NCBI GenBank assembly: GCA_902500755.1
Contig: CABVRV010000016.1
Coordinates: 1-54,727 of the forward strand
Length of the DNA stretch: 54,727 bases
DNA from: an uncultured Nitrospira sp.
GTDB taxonomy: Bacteria > Nitrospirota > Nitrospiria > Nitrospirales > Nitrospiraceae
Reading direction: 5' to 3'
The notes beneath the pieces were generated by a model, which did not search any database, had not been told where the DNA came from, and worked only from the letters and a program-made list of their open reading frames with translations. Of this stretch, positions 1 to 4,932 are shown piece by piece (position 1 is the stretch's first letter; each line of letters starts with the position of its first letter). Made by a program: the position numbers and the translations under genes.

Positions 1-54
1 TCCACTTCCACTTTGATCTTTTACCCGGTCAGTAATCCAGCGTCAAGAAGGTCA

Positions 55-75
55 GGTAGTGGGTCAGTTTGATTT
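55..75 (+). repeat. Left terminal inverted repeat of the transposon
   Basis: Begins GGTAGTGGGTCAGTTTGATT and is the exact reverse complement of 3156-3176. It is preceded by the 8-bp duplication GAAGGTCA at 47-54. Confidence 0.93.
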
Positions 76-84
76 TCTTTGATA

Positions 85-118
85 TTGCCCGTGCTTAAGC
101 GGTCATGTATGATGACCG
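85..118 (+). promoter_or_regulatory. Probable promoter and palindromic operator of the cargo operon
   Basis: TTGCCC (85-90), a 17-bp spacer and TATGAT (108-113) make a plausible sigma-70 promoter. The -10 lies inside an inverted repeat, CGGTCAT-GTATG-ATGACCG (100-118), a likely repressor site. The spacer also contains TGCTTAAGCGGTCA, whose complement resembles the palindrome in the transposase promoter (TGACCGCTCAAGCA), hinting at shared control. Transcription would start near 120, making the first gene leaderless; this is inference. Confidence 0.45.
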
Positions 119-119
119 T

Positions 120-404
120 ATGAGAAAAAAGAAACCATCCACCGATCCAAACGTGATTGCCCACGACATCCTGCAAGCTATCACCGGCGAACCTGCCGGG
201 ACAACCTCGGTTCAGAGAGAAGCTTCCGAAGAGCCCACCAAGAAGAAAGCTCAGCCTGAAAAGAACCCCGCTGCTGTCACTCTAGGTCGTCTAGGAGGAC
301 TAAAGGGCGGGAAGGCAAGAGCGGATAAGTTATCGGCTAAGAAGAGGACTGAAATAGCCAAGAAGGCGGCAAGGTCGCGGTGGGAGAAGAAAGGGGGGCG
401 ATAA
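120..404 (+). CDS. Small basic KGG-motif protein
   Basis: About 94 residues, very rich in Lys, Arg and Ala. The C-terminal half has the signature LGRLGGLKGGKARA followed by KRTEIAKKAARSRW, a pattern found in many uncharacterised small bacterial proteins with Gly-Gly-Lys repeats that probably bind nucleic acid. No catalytic motif or membrane segment is visible. An earlier in-frame ATG at 105 would add five residues but would overlap the predicted -10 box; neither start has a clear ribosome site. Its stop overlaps the protease ATG by one base (TAATG), so the two are probably translationally coupled. As transposon cargo its role is unknown; DNA or RNA binding partner or regulator of the protease are guesses. 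Confidence 0.7.
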   Translation: MRKKKPSTDPNVIAHDILQAITGEPAGTTSVQREASEEPTKKKAQPEKNPAAVTLGRLGGLKGGKARADKLSAKKRTEIAKKAARSRWEKKGGR

Positions 405-1435
405 TGAAAAAAGGTAGGCAAAGCCTTGGGACCGAAAAGCTTGCAGATACCAATGGTGAGGTACTTCCAGGCGTAACACCTCCAAAGGAAACCCTTGCTC
501 CCACCAAATATTGCGCATCGGTGTACCCTGGACCAACTTACCCAGTACCGAAGGCATTTGCAGACCTTATCCAACGCCTAGAGAAACTGCTAGATATGCC
601 TGTGTGGTTTATCGTGCAGAATAACGATGGTCCATGGGCAGAAATAGGGTCTGAACTATTTAAAGGTTTCCAACGTGCCATGTCAGATATGCCCAAGGGG
701 GAACCTATAGCATTGCTACTGGAGTCTCCTGGTGGCCAAGCTAATTATGCGTATCGACTCGCAAAGATGTTTCAGGTTCGGACCCAGAATAAATTGACTG
801 TTATTGTCCCGCAGTATGCAAAAAGCGCTGGAACTTTATTAGCATTAGGGGCTTCCGATTTAATTCTTGGACCTGAAGCCGAACTTGGGCCATTGGATGT
901 GCAAATGTTTGATATGGAGCGAGAATCATATGGGTCAGCGCTTGATGCTGTCCAATCTCTAGAAAGATTAAATGCATTCGCTATGACTGCAGTTGACCAG
1001 ACGATGCTCCTTTTGCTCCGCAGAACAGGGAAAAGGACAGATGTAATCTTGCCGCAAGTCTTGAGCTACGTATCACATTTTTTACAGCCATTGCTCCAGA
1101 AAATAGACACTTTGGATTACACCAAAAAGTCCAGAGAACTAAAAGTTGCTGAAGAATATGCGGTGCGCCTTATGCGCCCAAACTATCCATGGACCGATGC
1201 CAAACGCATTGCAAGGCAGCTAGTTGAAAGATACCCAACTCATGGGTTTGTCATTGACAAGGAAGAAGCTGAGGAATATGAAACAGTTGGAATAGGTGGA
1301 GAGACATTCGGCTTGGGCTTGAATTTATGTGATAAGTTCTCCGATAATGAGGACGTGAATGATATATTGGAAGCGATCATCCCATACCTTGATTCACTTG
1401 TTGTGAGTGGAAGAATAAGGAAAATGCAACCATGA
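404..1435 (+). CDS. SDH-family Clp-fold serine protease
   Basis: 343 residues, no signal peptide. The middle carries the Clp/crotonase-fold signature of serine-dehydrogenase-type proteinases (SppA relatives): ALLLESPGG (about 103-111) as the oxyanion strand, AKSAGT (139-144) with the likely nucleophile Ser141, and the following LGPEAELGPLD (about 155-165). The C-terminal half is helical and less conserved. Start: the ATG at 404 follows AAGGGGGG and overlaps the previous stop; a GTG at 380 is possible but less likely. The gene ends in a 4-base ATGA overlap with the next ORF, so three genes form one unit. It is cargo of the IS1-like element. Family members are predicted cytosolic or membrane-associated proteases; its substrate is unknown, though the basic KGG protein encoded just upstream is a natural candidate partner. 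Confidence 0.85.
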   Translation: MKKGRQSLGTEKLADTNGEVLPGVTPPKETLAPTKYCASVYPGPTYPVPKAFADLIQRLEKLLDMPVWFIVQNNDGPWAEIGSELFKGFQRAMSDMPKGEPIALLLESPGGQANYAYRLAKMFQVRTQNKLTVIVPQYAKSAGTLLALGASDLILGPEAELGPLDVQMFDMERESYGSALDAVQSLERLNAFAMTAVDQTMLLLLRRTGKRTDVILPQVLSYVSHFLQPLLQKIDTLDYTKKSRELKVAEEYAVRLMRPNYPWTDAKRIARQLVERYPTHGFVIDKEEAEEYETVGIGGETFGLGLNLCDKFSDNEDVNDILEAIIPYLDSLVVSGRIRKMQP

Positions 1436-1620
1436 AAGAGACCGCACTCAATAAGAAAGCTATAGACAATTTGCGGCGCGAGGTCACCACAGGTGAAGCT
1501 GTCGAAAGAGCTATTGCGCTATCAAAGGAAGATGGACCCATTTGGGAATACAGCGCTAGACGGAGCTTTTCAACGAGAAAGCTTGCGAAGAAAGCTAGCG
1601 CTTGCGCACATAGTTCATAG
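1432..1620 (+). CDS. Small hypothetical protein, third gene of the cargo operon
   Basis: 62 residues, overlapping the protease stop by ATGA and followed 10 bases later by a strong terminator, which supports it as a real operon member. It has an acidic/basic helical first half (ALNKKAIDNLRREVTTGEAV) and a basic C-terminus. I recognise no family. It could be an adaptor or inhibitor of the protease, but only the position supports that. Confidence 0.5.
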   Translation: MKETALNKKAIDNLRREVTTGEAVERAIALSKEDGPIWEYSARRSFSTRKLAKKASACAHSS

Positions 1621-1630
1621 ATTTTGGTTG

Positions 1631-1663
1631 AAAAGCCATCCTACTTCCTGGGATGGCTTTTTT
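1631..1663 (+). terminator. Strong intrinsic terminator after the cargo operon
   Basis: AAAAGCCATCC and GGATGGCTTTTTT form an 11-bp stem around a short loop, followed by a T run. It separates the protease operon from the transposase promoter, which starts only five bases later. Confidence 0.88.
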
Positions 1664-1667
1664 ATTG

Positions 1668-1696
1668 TTGACATTGCTTGACCGCTCAAGCATAAT
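1668..1696 (+). promoter_or_regulatory. Transposase promoter with built-in palindrome
   Basis: TTGACA (1668-1673), a 17-bp spacer and CATAAT (1691-1696) give a near-consensus promoter. The spacer is filled by a perfect palindrome, TGCTTGA-CCGC-TCAAGCA (1675-1692), an obvious repressor site. A related half occurs on the other strand upstream of the cargo operon near 92-105. Confidence 0.75.
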
Positions 1697-1720
1697 GCCT
1701 CTGTCACAACGGAGGCTTCC

Positions 1721-2566
1721 ATGAACAAACTGACGCAAGCCAAACGAGTCCAAGTGATAGCGGCATTAGTTGAGGGTAATAGTATTCGTGCGACGTGCCG
1801 AATGACCGATGTAGCAAAAGGCACAGTACTCAAGCTCCTCGTGGATCTTGGTAAGACTTGCGCTCGGTATCAGGATGAGAAACTGCGGAACCTGCCCTGT
1901 AAGCGCATTCAATGCGATGAGATTTGGTCGTTCTGCTATGCCAAACAGAAGAACGTTCCTGAGGAATACAAGGGCATGCTGGGTTTCGGCGATGTCTGGA
2001 CGTGGACGGCGATTTGCGCGGATACCAAGCTTATCCCCTCATTCCTCGTTGGTGAGCGGACGGCGGTCTATGCCAGGAAGTTCATCGATGATCTGGCCTC
2101 ACGGCTTGCTAATCGCGTACAGCTCACCACGGACGGCCATAAAGCCTATTTGACGGCGGTCGAGAATGCCTTCGGGATCGACGTTGATTATGCGATGCTA
2201 GACAAGATCTACGCGGCTCCTCCTAAGCCTGATGTCCATCGTTATAGCCCAGCGAATTGTTGTGGAATCGTGAAGAAAAAGATCAATGGCAATCCCGATA
2301 TGTCGAAGGTCTCCACTTCCTATGTTGAACGCCAGAACCTCACCATGCGGATGCAGATGAGGCGCTATACCCGCCTAACCAATGCCTTCAGTGAGAAGCT
2401 AGAAAACCAGGCTCATGCCGTGGCCCTGCATTTCATGCACTACAATTTCCGCCGGATTCATCAGAGCTTGCGAGTGACACCGGCGATGCAGGCAGGAATA
2501 GCCGATCATGTGTGGAGCTTGGAAGAAATTATAGATTTACTCGACAATAATAGGGAGAAGACCTAA
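1721..2566 (+). CDS. IS1-family-like DDE transposase
   Basis: 281 residues. An N-terminal helix-turn-helix (about 5-45: NSIRATCRMTDVAKGTV) precedes a DDE catalytic core with likely residues Asp66 (CDEIWSF), Asp138 (TTDGHKAY) and Glu203 (YVERQNLT). The start follows CGGAGGCTTCC, a good ribosome site. It is encoded in a single frame, unlike classical IS1 with its insA/insB frameshift, but like the ISMhu11-type branch. It cuts and joins at the 21-bp terminal repeats of the element. The gene appears intact, so the element may be active. Expression is probably limited by the palindrome in its promoter. Confidence 0.9.
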   Translation: MNKLTQAKRVQVIAALVEGNSIRATCRMTDVAKGTVLKLLVDLGKTCARYQDEKLRNLPCKRIQCDEIWSFCYAKQKNVPEEYKGMLGFGDVWTWTAICADTKLIPSFLVGERTAVYARKFIDDLASRLANRVQLTTDGHKAYLTAVENAFGIDVDYAMLDKIYAAPPKPDVHRYSPANCCGIVKKKINGNPDMSKVSTSYVERQNLTMRMQMRRYTRLTNAFSEKLENQAHAVALHFMHYNFRRIHQSLRVTPAMQAGIADHVWSLEEIIDLLDNNREKT

Positions 2567-2583
2567 CTTGAAACTGTATAAAA

Positions 2584-2627
2584 GAGTGTTCCATAATGTA
2601 TCACAAGCGCATCACACGGGAATACTC
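2584..2627 (+). promoter_or_regulatory. Candidate operator upstream of the transposon toxin-antitoxin pair
   Basis: GAGTGTTCC (2584-2592) and GGAATACTC (2619-2627) form an inverted repeat with one mismatch, just upstream of the antitoxin start at 2629. Phd/YefM-type antitoxins usually repress their own promoter, so autoregulation at this site is likely. Confidence 0.4.
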
Positions 2628-2628
2628 T

Positions 2629-2949
2629 ATGTCCACTATGACCAAAACACTCTCTATATCAGAAGCTCGTGGTCGCTTAGGGCGGTTTGTCGATCGAGTG
2701 GAGAAGCGGTCGGCCACCTATGCCATTACAAAAAAGGGGCTAACCCGAGCCGTCCTTATTAGCAGTGCAGAATATGAAAGCTGGAATGCTACCCTGGAGA
2801 TTCTCTCAAGCGAAAAAGATATGGCAGCCATTGAGAAAGGAATTGCTGATCTCAATGCTGGCAAGGGTAGATCATTCGAAGAAGTATTCGGTGAGCCCCT
2901 GAATGATCCCGATCATCAAATCCGTCCAATTATCACCCGCCGCAGATGA
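2629..2949 (+). CDS. Phd/YefM-type antitoxin
   Basis: About 106 residues. The N-terminus TLSISEARGRLGRFVDRVEK followed by TYAITKKGLTRAVLISSAEYESW is the typical Phd/YefM DNA-binding fold: two strands and a helix, then the 'xAVLxSxxEYE' strand. The C-terminus (AGKGRSFEEVFGEPL) is the usual toxin-binding tail. An in-frame ATG at 2596 would add 11 residues inside the presumed operator, so 2629 is preferred. It overlaps the toxin gene by 47 bases, which enforces coupling. Expected role: neutralises the downstream RelE-type toxin and represses the module. Within the transposon it may stabilise the element after insertion. Confidence 0.82.
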   Translation: MSTMTKTLSISEARGRLGRFVDRVEKRSATYAITKKGLTRAVLISSAEYESWNATLEILSSEKDMAAIEKGIADLNAGKGRSFEEVFGEPLNDPDHQIRPIITRRR

Positions 2950-3157
2950 TTTCATCTCTTCTCATCCTGAATTAAAGAAGACCATCGGCCAGGCTATCCG
3001 ACGCTTAGCGCAGAATCCTCTTGATGGAATTCCATTGAGGGGGAGGCTAAGAGGACTTCGCAAGAAGCGTGTTGGCGATTACCGCATTATCTACACCTTT
3101 ACGGCGACCACTCTAAATATTGTGGATGTCGGAGATCGAAAAGATATTTACAGATAA
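2903..3157 (+). CDS. RelE/ParE-superfamily toxin
   Basis: 84 residues with the RelE fold signature: an N-terminal strand (KSVQLSPAADDFI), a helical pair, and the C-terminal strands LRGLRKKRVGDYRIIYTF and LNIVDVGDRKDIYR. RelE members are ribosome-dependent mRNA endonucleases; ParE members attack gyrase. The basic patch and YRIIY motif favour the RelE type, but this is not certain. Its stop codon (3155-3157) runs into the right terminal repeat, so the transposon boundary was set immediately after the toxin. Confidence 0.85.
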   Translation: MIPIIKSVQLSPAADDFISSHPELKKTIGQAIRRLAQNPLDGIPLRGRLRGLRKKRVGDYRIIYTFTATTLNIVDVGDRKDIYR

Positions 3158-3176
3158 ATCAAACTGACCCACTACC
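3156..3176 (-). repeat. Right terminal inverted repeat of the transposon
   Basis: Exact reverse complement of 55-75, followed by the second copy of GAAGGTCA at 3177-3184. The stop codon of the RelE-type toxin (3155-3157) overlaps its inner edge, so the coding region runs right to the transposon end. Confidence 0.93.
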
Positions 3177-3234
3177 GAAGGTCAGACCCGCCTTGCCATG
3201 GCGACCGAGCACGGAGCTACTTCTTGGCGATCTG

Positions 3235-3256
3235 AGTGATCGCATGATCACTTTTC
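3235..3256 (+). terminator. Possible weak terminator upstream of murJ
   Basis: AGTGATC-GCAT-GATCACT forms a perfect 7-bp stem followed by TTTTC. It lies outside the transposon in the old murJ upstream region and could end transcription from the left. AT-rich stem and short T tract make this tentative. Confidence 0.35.
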
Positions 3257-3318
3257 TCGCTCGATGGGTTTCCCCGCTTCGATAGACTGCGTATCATCGT
3301 TCCGCTAGAATCCGGTCC

Positions 3319-4932
3319 ATGCCTGAGCCTTCTGTGACGACTGGTGCTCCACCCAAGCTCCAGGACGAGAATCAATCAGTCGTCAAAGCGGCTGGGATGA
3401 TCGGCGTGGCCACGTTTTCCAGCCGCGTCCTGGGGTTCATCCGTGACATGGTTCTCGCGGGACTCTTTGGCGCCACTCCGGCTGCCGACGCGTTCTTTGT
3501 CGCCTATCGTATCCCGAATCTACTCCGCGAACTTTTTGCCGAAGGTTCGATGTCCGCCGCGTTCATTCCGGTCTTCACCGAGTATCACACACTCAAGTCG
3601 AAACAGGATGCTTGGGAGTTGGCGAGTGCCGCATTTACGACACTGCTGACCATTGTGACGGGCATTACCATGCTTGGGATTTTAGGGGCAGCGGGCATTG
3701 TCTGGCTCTTGGCCCCTGGATTTCATGATGATCCGACCCGGCTTGAAATGACGACATTGCTCACACGCATGATGTTTCCCTATCTCATTTTCATCAGTCT
3801 GGCCGCGCTGGCTATGGGGATCCTTAATTCCCTACGAGCCTTTGCGGCGCCGGCGTTTTCTCCCGTATTCTTCAATCTATTTATCATTGGATGTGCGCTC
3901 TTTCTTGCTCCCACGTTGCCGGAGCCCATCCTCGGTGTGGCTGTCGGTGTCGTTGCAGGCGGGGCAGCCCAGTTTGCGATGCAATTGCCGGGGCTCAAGT
4001 TTCGCGGAATGTTATTCGGATTCAAATTCCGGCCCGGCCATCCCGGTGTACGAAAGATCGGCAAGCTGATGATTCCATCGCTGCTTGGTCTGTCTGTGAC
4101 ACAAATCAACATCACCGTGAGCACGATTCTGGGGTCGTTTTTTGCGGGTGGTCCGACCTATTTATTTTATGGTATGCGGCTGATCCAGTTCCCCCTCGGA
4201 ATTTTCGGTGTGGCCCTGGCCACGGCTATTCTGCCGACCCTGTCGGCGCAAGCGGCACGAGGGGCGCTGGCCGAACTGCGCACGACCCTCGGATTTGGTC
4301 TACGCATGATCTTCTTTATCATTCTGCCGGCGATGGTGGGGTTGATTGTGTTGCGGACTCCGATCGTCCACCTCTTCTTCGAGCATGGGACCTTTACGGC
4401 GCACGATACGACTGAGACGGCGTTTGCGGTTCTGTGCTATGCCGTGGGCCTCTGGGCATTCGGTGGGGTGCGTATTATTGTGTCGGCATTTTATTCGATG
4501 AAGGACACGACTACGCCGGCCATCTCTGCAATGATTGCGGTGGTTGCGAATATCCTGCTCTCATTGCTTTTGATGTCGCATCTTGGCGCAGCAGGATTGG
4601 CCCTCGCCACGGCACTCGCTGCGATGGTCAACGGCGGAATTCTCGTGGTCGTATTGAATCGGCGACTGGGTGGTGTTGAGTGGACGTCGGTGATCCGCTC
4701 TGCCGGCCGGGTGCTGGTGGGTTGCGTTCCAATTGTATTGGTCTGTAGGTGGGTGGCCGACGCACAGATCTGGAGTCATCCAGCCGAGTGGTTCGAGAAA
4801 TCTGCAATGCTTGTCGTTGCCATTGGATTAAGCGTCGGTGGATACCTCGGAGTTCATGCGTTGTTTCGGTCGGAGGAGCTTGGTATCGTGTGGGGCATGG
4901 TGCGGAGAAAGCTCGGCAGATCGGCGAGATAA
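3319..4932 (+). CDS. murJ: Lipid II flippase MurJ
   Basis: 537 residues, about 14 membrane helices, a member of the MOP/MviN family that moves lipid II across the inner membrane for peptidoglycan synthesis. The N-terminus carries the family hallmarks: VVKAAGMIGVATFSSRVLGF, the Arg-rich turn GFIRDMVLAGLFGA, DAFFVAYRIPNLLRELFAEG and AFIPVFTEY. The segment FGVALATAILPTLSAQAA is also typical. Length matches the family. The gene starts 142 bases right of the transposon, so the insertion separated it from whatever lay upstream; its own promoter is not obvious. It is followed 13 bases later by ogt, probably in the same transcript. Confidence 0.96.
   Translation: MPEPSVTTGAPPKLQDENQSVVKAAGMIGVATFSSRVLGFIRDMVLAGLFGATPAADAFFVAYRIPNLLRELFAEGSMSAAFIPVFTEYHTLKSKQDAWELASAAFTTLLTIVTGITMLGILGAAGIVWLLAPGFHDDPTRLEMTTLLTRMMFPYLIFISLAALAMGILNSLRAFAAPAFSPVFFNLFIIGCALFLAPTLPEPILGVAVGVVAGGAAQFAMQLPGLKFRGMLFGFKFRPGHPGVRKIGKLMIPSLLGLSVTQINITVSTILGSFFAGGPTYLFYGMRLIQFPLGIFGVALATAILPTLSAQAARGALAELRTTLGFGLRMIFFIILPAMVGLIVLRTPIVHLFFEHGTFTAHDTTETAFAVLCYAVGLWAFGGVRIIVSAFYSMKDTTTPAISAMIAVVANILLSLLLMSHLGAAGLALATALAAMVNGGILVVVLNRRLGGVEWTSVIRSAGRVLVGCVPIVLVCRWVADAQIWSHPAEWFEKSAMLVVAIGLSVGGYLGVHALFRSEELGIVWGMVRRKLGRSAR

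Follow-up and report, generated by a model that had tools for sequence, protein, structure and literature searches.

Insertion sequences (IS) of the IS1 family are compact elements of about 0.8 kb that carry a transposase only, encoded in the two-frame InsA/InsB arrangement, and that duplicate 8-9 bp of their target; InsA is the repressor of IS1. Insertion sequences with passenger genes (tIS) are also a known kind, and PMC7986276 places members in a number of IS families and one in IS6. Here we describe an element at the left end of a 54,727-nucleotide stretch of DNA from an uncultured Nitrospira sp. (assembly GCA_902500755.1, contig CABVRV010000016.1, positions 1 to 54,727), the whole of which we call the window, and we consider it likely that this element is a unit transposon from a branch of the IS1 group that crosses phyla, with control by a protein that we designate KGG and a palindrome in the core promoters.

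The elements of this branch share with IS1 a DDE domain scored by both PF03400 and the NCBI IS1 model NF033558, short inverted ends and duplications of 8-9 bp, whereas they differ in having a transposase in one reading frame, a length of 1.5-5.6 kb, extra genes throughout the sample and a separate KGG gene. The window element has the IS1-type DDE transposase and duplication and lacks the compact, transposase-only form. Like the tIS, it has passenger genes enclosed by simple IS ends; these genes lie within one pair of ends and were moved as a unit, as judged from the ends, the duplication and an empty site, but in the sampled branch passengers are the rule and are accompanied by an accessory gene that is conserved and a promoter site that is shared. 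KGG itself would resemble InsA as an element-encoded DNA-binding protein that limits its own transposase, although KGG has no convincing Pfam family and its putative site lies in promoters rather than in the inverted ends.

Boundaries, insertion and relatives of the element

The complete transposon is 3,122 bp long and occupies positions 47-3184 of the window together with its target duplications (Table 1). Its terminal inverted repeats are 21 nt long with 100% complementarity, and no longer inverted repeat was reported for positions 1-3600. A separate script arrived at identical ends and an identical duplication; the probability that 8 bp match exactly by chance at a given pair of ends is about 1.5e-5. 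A preliminary description of this DNA had reported a complete element with 21-bp inverted ends, an 8-bp duplication and an intact single-ORF (open reading frame) IS1-like DDE transposase, all of which is confirmed here. The element sits about 135 bp upstream of murJ, and since the contig starts 46 bp before the element, the left flank is 46 bp. A search with the right flank gave matches in 71 of 80 genomes, and the joined flanks were compared with 20 loci that have the right flank, the window's own included. The uninterrupted site that the preliminary description had predicted was found in two same-genus relatives, G053, where the alignment across the junction covers 371 columns at 90% identity with one gap and reads GAAGGACA once, and G127, at 83% identity with six gap positions; the other 17 loci align on the murJ side only. 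These alignments show that the element inserted as a unit, copying 8 bp of its target. About 1.4 kb of sequence is present to the left of the empty site in G053 (L217).

Relatives were gathered by searching for the transposase, which gave 462 confirmed places in genome_contigs (the best 80 of the 462 were used), 59 loci in viral_contigs and matches in 36 of 176 family genomes. Examination of 150 transposase loci yielded a first set of 94 non-redundant elements in which both ends were located together with an exact duplication, the rest being 6 duplicates, 29 loci with both ends and no duplication, and 21 with one end only. A held-out set of 107 further loci, 101 of them with a usable transposase match, added 45 new elements (21 were already seen, 27 had both ends without a duplication and 8 had one end), for a total of 139 non-redundant elements (94 + 45), with duplications of 7-12 bp searched for. 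The held-out set is not fully independent, as several of its rows are close kin of the first set, and its L375 is the L114 element of the 71 elements mapped earlier, though L114 is absent from the 94. Listing of ORFs element by element covers those first 71.

The 139 elements with the same ends around related transposases are 1,505-5,556 bp long, and all are flanked by exact duplications, which measure 8 bp in 136 elements and 9 bp in 3 (92 and 2 in the first set, 44 and 1 in the held-out set). None is a bare IS and none is under 1.5 kb. The preliminary description had taken a passenger-bearing IS to be an exception; since the smallest of the 139 is 1,505 bp and all of them exceed a bare IS, the window element appears not to be an odd IS1 and to belong instead to a family in which the sampled members all carry extra genes. 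If it were an ordinary IS1-family IS that had picked up its passengers once, in a single tIS event in this lineage, a transposase above the Pfam IS1 cut-off would be expected, as is seen, and tIS (PMC7986276) offer a precedent, but 0 of 139 sampled end-mapped relatives are bare, and KGG and the promoter palindrome recur across phyla. We regard such an origin as very improbable. The preliminary description had also named two outcomes that would speak against it, the same gene order without the ends and a lack of relatives with the same ends, and neither was seen. Chance ends or a mis-joined contig were considered as well and are ruled out, because two relatives have empty sites and 139 relatives have the same layout.

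The window transposase scores 26.9 bits against PF03400, above the cut-off of 24.1, and 59.3 bits against NF033558, below the cut-off of 100, which places it in what appears to be a divergent branch of the IS1 group. Its presumed catalytic residues D66, D138 and E203 are kept in 65, 65 and 64 of 65 relatives. Among the 94 first-set elements, 52 fall in 11 named phyla, 1 is from a bacterium without a phylum and 41 carry no taxon label, viral contigs and plasmids included; phylum labels were taken from record titles and many rows are metagenome bins, so single labels may be wrong. All four full-length plasmid matches (Mesorhizobium, Methylocapsa, Acidiphilium, Hoeflea) have both ends and three have the duplication; three of the four records are annotated 'IS1 family transposase' and the fourth as an HTH protein. 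In phage records, the transposase found one distant match at 31%. The 8-bp duplications of 71 elements are not palindromic (match fraction 0.25) and show a weak base bias. No description of this transposase branch was found in the open-access PMC literature; ISfinder, bioRxiv and most subscription journals lie outside that scope.

KGG and the palindrome of the core promoters

The KGG gene was treated as cargo in the preliminary description, and its distribution points instead to a second core gene. A profile built from 13 KGG proteins of these elements gave, at E 1e-5, 64 matches within the elements (207 kb in all) and none in the 545 kb of their flanks, with 59 of 69 elements matched; at E 1e-3 it matched 87 of the 94 first-set elements and 42 of the 45 held-out elements. 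Leaving out nine elements that had been fetched in the knowledge that KGG was present gives 78 of 85, two of the held-out 45 (L375 and L377) were likewise previously known as KGG-bearing, and some of the profile matches fall on the KGG domain with which a P63C protein begins. Since KGG is found in 87 of 94 elements while other genes vary, we count it as a backbone gene. Among 59 small KGG ORFs of the first 71 elements, 58 point in the transposase direction and 43 start within 78 nt of the left end, and of the 29 full-length KGG matches in the 176 family genomes, 24 have a transposase on the same strand no more than 3 kb away. The family core consists of the ends, the IS1-like DDE transposase and, in nearly all members, KGG, with an exchangeable block between KGG and the transposase promoter, after the transposase, or in both places.

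KGG might alternatively be cargo, for example an anti-restriction or immunity protein for host benefit, and the promoter site would then serve its own regulation only. P63C cargo proteins also begin with a KGG-type domain, the L040 copy matches the phage family phrog_2384 over nearly its whole length, and 5 of the 29 full-length matches in the 176 genomes have no transposase within 3 kb, all of which would sit well with a cargo role; yet KGG is retained while other cargo turns over, and the palindrome also lies in the transposase promoter, so that we hold this explanation to be quite improbable. The P63C proteins with their own N-terminal KGG domain are encoded at L040:4568-5602 and, similarly, L042:4789-5844 and L059:3155-4225, and the phrog_2384 match of the L040 copy suggests that the KGG domain may have been trafficked between phages and the transposon. 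Three of the loci at which KGG stands apart were examined and have no transposase. At L236 (G117:C1:4290000-4300000), and also at L187, there is a left end, a KGG gene and two genes that by eye look like the HicA pair of L246; neither a transposase nor a right end was found, as in a decayed or non-autonomous element. L193 (G116) has a full-length KGG gene of the Nitrospira type, apparently a remnant, with no recognisable ends or transposase within 3.2 kb. A tblastn search of plasmids with single KGG sequences gave no match, a negative that reflects the sensitivity of the search, because a copy is annotated beside the transposase of the Mesorhizobium plasmid.

The KGG-side and transposase-side promoter regions have in common a palindrome with the consensus TGCTTGASCGSTCAAGCA, and the two regions are more similar within elements than between them (p 0.003 direct, 0.0015 inverted). 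At a threshold of at least 13/18, the 90 bp before the transposase contain it in 56 of the 94 elements and the left end (nt 19-108) in 43 of 94; shuffled sequences reach this threshold in 0.6% and 0.4% of cases, respectively, and windows taken from within the transposase gene in 4 of 94. At 15/18 or better there are 47 sites before the transposase and 33 at the left end. A further 15 lie elsewhere in elements, at least 8 of which coincide with the beginning of a KGG gene that is displaced, whereas transposase genes have 0 and the 734 kb of flank have 2. Of the 87 KGG-bearing elements, 60 have it in at least one core promoter, and 39 of these carry it in each of the two. Among the 56 elements with the palindrome before the transposase, 34 have both hexamers (at least 4/6 each) with the palindrome filling the -35/-10 spacer, and in some members the palindrome covers the KGG start codon. 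Where it does so under a KR-Ser-Ser peptide, the two serines are TCA-AGY in 10 of 10 elements (rows chosen by the peptide), and this uniform codon usage points to a constraint on the DNA rather than on the protein.

Which protein reads the palindrome is suggested by two kinds of comparison. The palindrome is present in at least one core promoter of 53 of the 61 elements with an intact long KGG and of none of the 7 without KGG, for which Fisher's test gives p 7e-6, a value that is too small because the rows are related; in the held-out set the counts are 14 of 25 and 0 of 3. In four of the seven KGG-less elements, a zinc-ribbon protein with KGG-like motifs in swapped order is encoded in reverse at the right end, and the clade with this protein and without the usual KGG comprises L144, L148 (the same element as L149), L150, L154 and L162 (e.g., L144:6773-7051). 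KGG itself comes in two types, a longer form A with GGxxGG and a form B that is about four residues shorter, and the spacing of the palindrome follows them when pairs of half-sites are scored with at most 4 mismatches summed over both regions. In the first set, type A elements (n=66) fit spacing 8 best in 39, 6 in 0 and others in 4, with no site in 23, and type B (n=12) fit 6 in 9 and 8 in 2, with none in 1. Held-out type A (n=25) gives 8 in 7, 6 in 0, 7 in 5, others in 4 and none in 9, and held-out type B (n=12) gives 6 in 6, 8 in 1, others in 2 and none in 3. In a direct comparison of 6 against 8 over 136 elements, type A has 45 at 8 and 0 at 6, and type B has 3 at 8 and 16 at 6. Of these three B rows, L082 looks by eye like a long form with a changed glycine, L024 has its KGG scored within a P63C-type cargo protein and L371 is a plain exception. 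The shared core-promoter palindrome and the spacing that tracks the KGG variant are new here, and from them we infer that KGG is the binder of the palindrome.

KGG could instead be a nucleoid-like structural or transposition accessory protein that aids long elements, with the palindrome read by another protein. It is basic (median net charge +11 over 59 copies), one copy in a Mesorhizobium plasmid is annotated 'histone H1', and the transposase, whose N-terminal region could be the binder and is the main rival to KGG in this respect, is the one protein common to the whole sample; the palindrome, however, is missing in 7 of 7 and, in the held-out set, 3 of 3 KGG-less elements, all of which still have the transposase, and the spacing of the palindrome tracks the KGG variant; these two findings make such an arrangement unlikely in our judgement.

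Several further observations weigh against KGG as the regulator that reads this site. Both core promoters have the palindrome in just 39 of the 87 KGG-bearing elements, a count from a left-end search over nt 19-108 that misses displaced KGG genes, and the palindrome is missing altogether from 8 of the 61 intact-KGG elements and 11 of the 25 held-out type A elements. The seven KGG-less elements fall into about three groups. Spacing 7 is the best fit for 5 of the 25 held-out type A elements, and spacing changes about 3 times on the tree, with 1-2 independent pairs on supported branches, so the covariation is strong in counts and rests on few events. Around 67 transposase loci without called ends, KGG lies within 4 kb upstream in 36 and not in 17, with 14 too short to tell. 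A structural model of KGG gives three helices at weak confidence (pLDDT 75, pTM 0.33), and its comparison with the PDB returned no useful match. The window element, for its part, is single-copy, and none of the relatives seen carries an identical set of cargo genes, which leaves recent movement of this particular unit unsupported; the source genome is a draft of 3.8 Mb in which the element was matched once, and the second genomic copy with the same cargo that the preliminary description had proposed to look for was not found across its 203 contigs, in which repeats may have collapsed.

Cargo exchange and the genes of the window element

The genes that vary across the family include RosmerTA, HTH/ImmA-IrrE modules, P63C, HicA, HigB, SDH-type protease and Phd/ParE. 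Comparison of close pairs suggests how they vary: the window element and L044 are 82% identical over element nt 1-337 and 77% over 1614-2461 with no blastn match between, and the end segments of L035 and L055 are 89% and 83% identical around different cargo. The members nearest to the window element (transposase at least 75% identical) likewise carry different cargo; next to the window's own SDH protease and Phd/ParE there are an HTH gene with HicA, P63C (two), RosmerTA, HTH/M78 with HigB, a Gp49-type gene with an HTH gene, another SDH protease and unassigned genes. Profiles built from members of the first 71 elements gave strong matches (E 1e-50; 1e-15 for SDH) in 42 of the 94, 16 for P63C and 9 each for RmrA, PD-Lambda-2_B-like and SDH, one element having two. 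On a 65-row transposase tree with strong support on few branches (10/62), cargo labels change 7 times for 7 rows of RmrA, 5 for 5 of SDH, 7 for 9 of P63C and 4 for 6 of PD-Lambda-2_B. Jointly they need 23 changes against a shuffled mean of 26.7, a value as low in 2 of 200 shuffles; because the labels are thus somewhat more clustered than shuffled ones, cargo appears to be partly inherited and partly exchanged.

In the set of 131 cargo-protein rows from the first 71 elements, one of which is a 28-aa fragment, Pfam recognises HTH_3 in 17, M78 in 13, P63C in 11, SDH in 6, NYN in 4 and SocA in 2, while individual RmrA models of PADLOC match as many as 12 when weak matches are counted, and a single RmrT model matches 3. 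RmrA stands beside RmrT in L163, where both were scored, and in L014, L135, L147 and L166, where RmrT was scored and RmrA was assigned by cluster. RosmerTA and PD-Lambda-2 are phage-defence systems under their PADLOC model names; RosmerTA and PD-Lambda-2_B-like genes are cargo of relatives of the window element, which itself differs in having no RmrA-type gene (no strong match to the RmrA profile) and no RmrA and RmrT side by side. Beside the PD-Lambda-2_B-like HTH/M78 gene, all 7 of 7 such elements of the first set encode a 146-178 aa protein (L133:4251-4730, with relatives in L074, L083, L091, L129, L132 and L152); the L133 copy, a candidate partner gene, has no Pfam or PADLOC match. Singletons number 84 cargo ORFs of at least 100 aa, some of which may be spurious since ORFs were called mechanically.

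The six ORFs of the window element all lie on one strand, and the stop codon of the toxin runs into the right inverted repeat. Its passenger-bearing layout with a protease-like gene and a toxin-antitoxin pair, as put forward in the preliminary description, is supported by the ORFs and Pfam. Because KGG, the protease and the 62-aa ORF overlap end to start (at 404 and at 1432-1435), one operon of the three is plausible, which keeps part of the protease operon proposed earlier, although KGG alone of the three recurs generally. Pfam has no family for the window's KGG or its 62-aa ORF, and the latter also found no match in the other family libraries searched. Promoter-like sites of the type before KGG number 6 in positions 1-3330, where 4.3 are expected by shuffling, and no RNA families were found in positions 1-3400 of the window.

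Table 1. Features of the window element and its target duplications, in window coordinates.
Feature	Coordinates	Strand	Basis
Target-site duplication, left copy	47..54	.	GAAGGTCA, direct reading; single copy GAAGGACA in G053 empty site
Left terminal inverted repeat	55..75	+	Consensus of 71 relatives GGTAGTGGgTCAGTTTGAA
Promoter-like site before KGG, TTGCCC-17-TATGAT	85..113	+	9/12; consensus match only
Left operator-like palindrome, TGCTTAAGCGGTCATGTA	92..109	.	15/18 to family consensus
KGG protein (core gene)	120..404 (ORF open from 105)	+	L014 copy starts at the equivalent of the ATG at 120
SDH-type Clp-fold serine protease-like gene (cargo)	404..1435	+	PF01972 (SDH_protease), E 1e-16
62-aa ORF (cargo)	1432..1620	+	ORF list; overlaps protease stop
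Intrinsic terminator-like hairpin after cargo operon	1630..1662	+	5 such sites in 1-3330 vs 3.7 expected by shuffling
Transposase promoter-like site, TTGACA-17-CATAAT	1668..1696	+	11/12, near-consensus; consensus match
Transposase operator-like palindrome, TGCTTGACCGCTCAAGCA, between -35 and -10	1675..1692	.	18/18 to family consensus
IS1-like DDE transposase, 281 aa (core gene)	1721..2566	+	PF03400 (DDE_Tnp_IS1), 7e-6
Phd/YefM-type antitoxin (cargo)	2629..2949 (ORF open from 2596)	+	PF02604 (PhdYeFM), E 1.2e-13
ParE/RelE-type toxin (cargo)	2903..3157	+	PF05016 (ParE_toxin), E 9.9e-10
Right terminal inverted repeat	3156..3176	-	Inverted-repeat search
Target-site duplication, right copy	3177..3184	.	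GAAGGTCA, direct reading

The protease of the window scores 67.4 bits against NF047768, below the equivalog cut-off of 250, so it appears related to that SDH-type protease and not the same protein. It matches the phage family phrog_21683 (function not known) at E 2.6e-28 and has no PADLOC match; as a query, it found no relative in genome_contigs and distant matches alone in 10 of 175 other family genomes, so that the transposase proved the more informative query. S141, D165 and H280, which would be catalytic, are invariant in 5 of 5 aligned cargo copies. The Phd/ParE (RelE superfamily) pair has adjacent antitoxin and toxin genes of both families, as predicted for a toxin-antitoxin module, and the protease may act in a defence or toxin-antitoxin-like unit.

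A proposed self-silencing switch and its meaning

If KGG is a small basic DNA-binding regulator, probably a dimer, that binds the palindrome, then its binding should shut off the transposase, KGG and co-transcribed cargo, because the palindrome often fills the -35/-10 spacer before the transposase and in some members covers the KGG start. We infer on this basis that KGG represses itself, the adjoining cargo and the transposase. An element that enters a new host without KGG would be briefly derepressed, would jump and would then silence itself. Cargo would give an advantage to the host or to the element, and by protecting the host (phage defence) or punishing loss (toxin-antitoxin) it would pay for the upkeep of the element; in the window element, this role may fall to the SDH-type protease with its 62-aa partner and to the Phd/ParE pair at the right end.

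We lean slightly towards the view that KGG represents a new family of transposon-encoded regulators, and that KGG and the palindrome form a portable switch over the transposase, KGG and adjacent cargo that lets one IS1-like transposase swap phage-defence, toxin-antitoxin and protease modules across at least 11 bacterial phyla. Owing to the palindrome, the way transposition is controlled can be tested directly, with a single small protein and two short stretches of DNA. Elements of 2-4 kb with fixed ends may escape surveys of defence genes, yet in this one family both defence systems with a name and numerous gene pairs without one occur as cargo, each delimited by ends and target duplications. 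Inspecting the DNA between KGG and the transposase thus offers a rule for finding new defence and toxin-antitoxin modules. If the proposed switch is right, the recurrent unassigned cargo, namely the SDH-type protease with its partners, P63C and the ~160-aa partner of the HTH/ImmA-IrrE gene, would be candidate defence systems.

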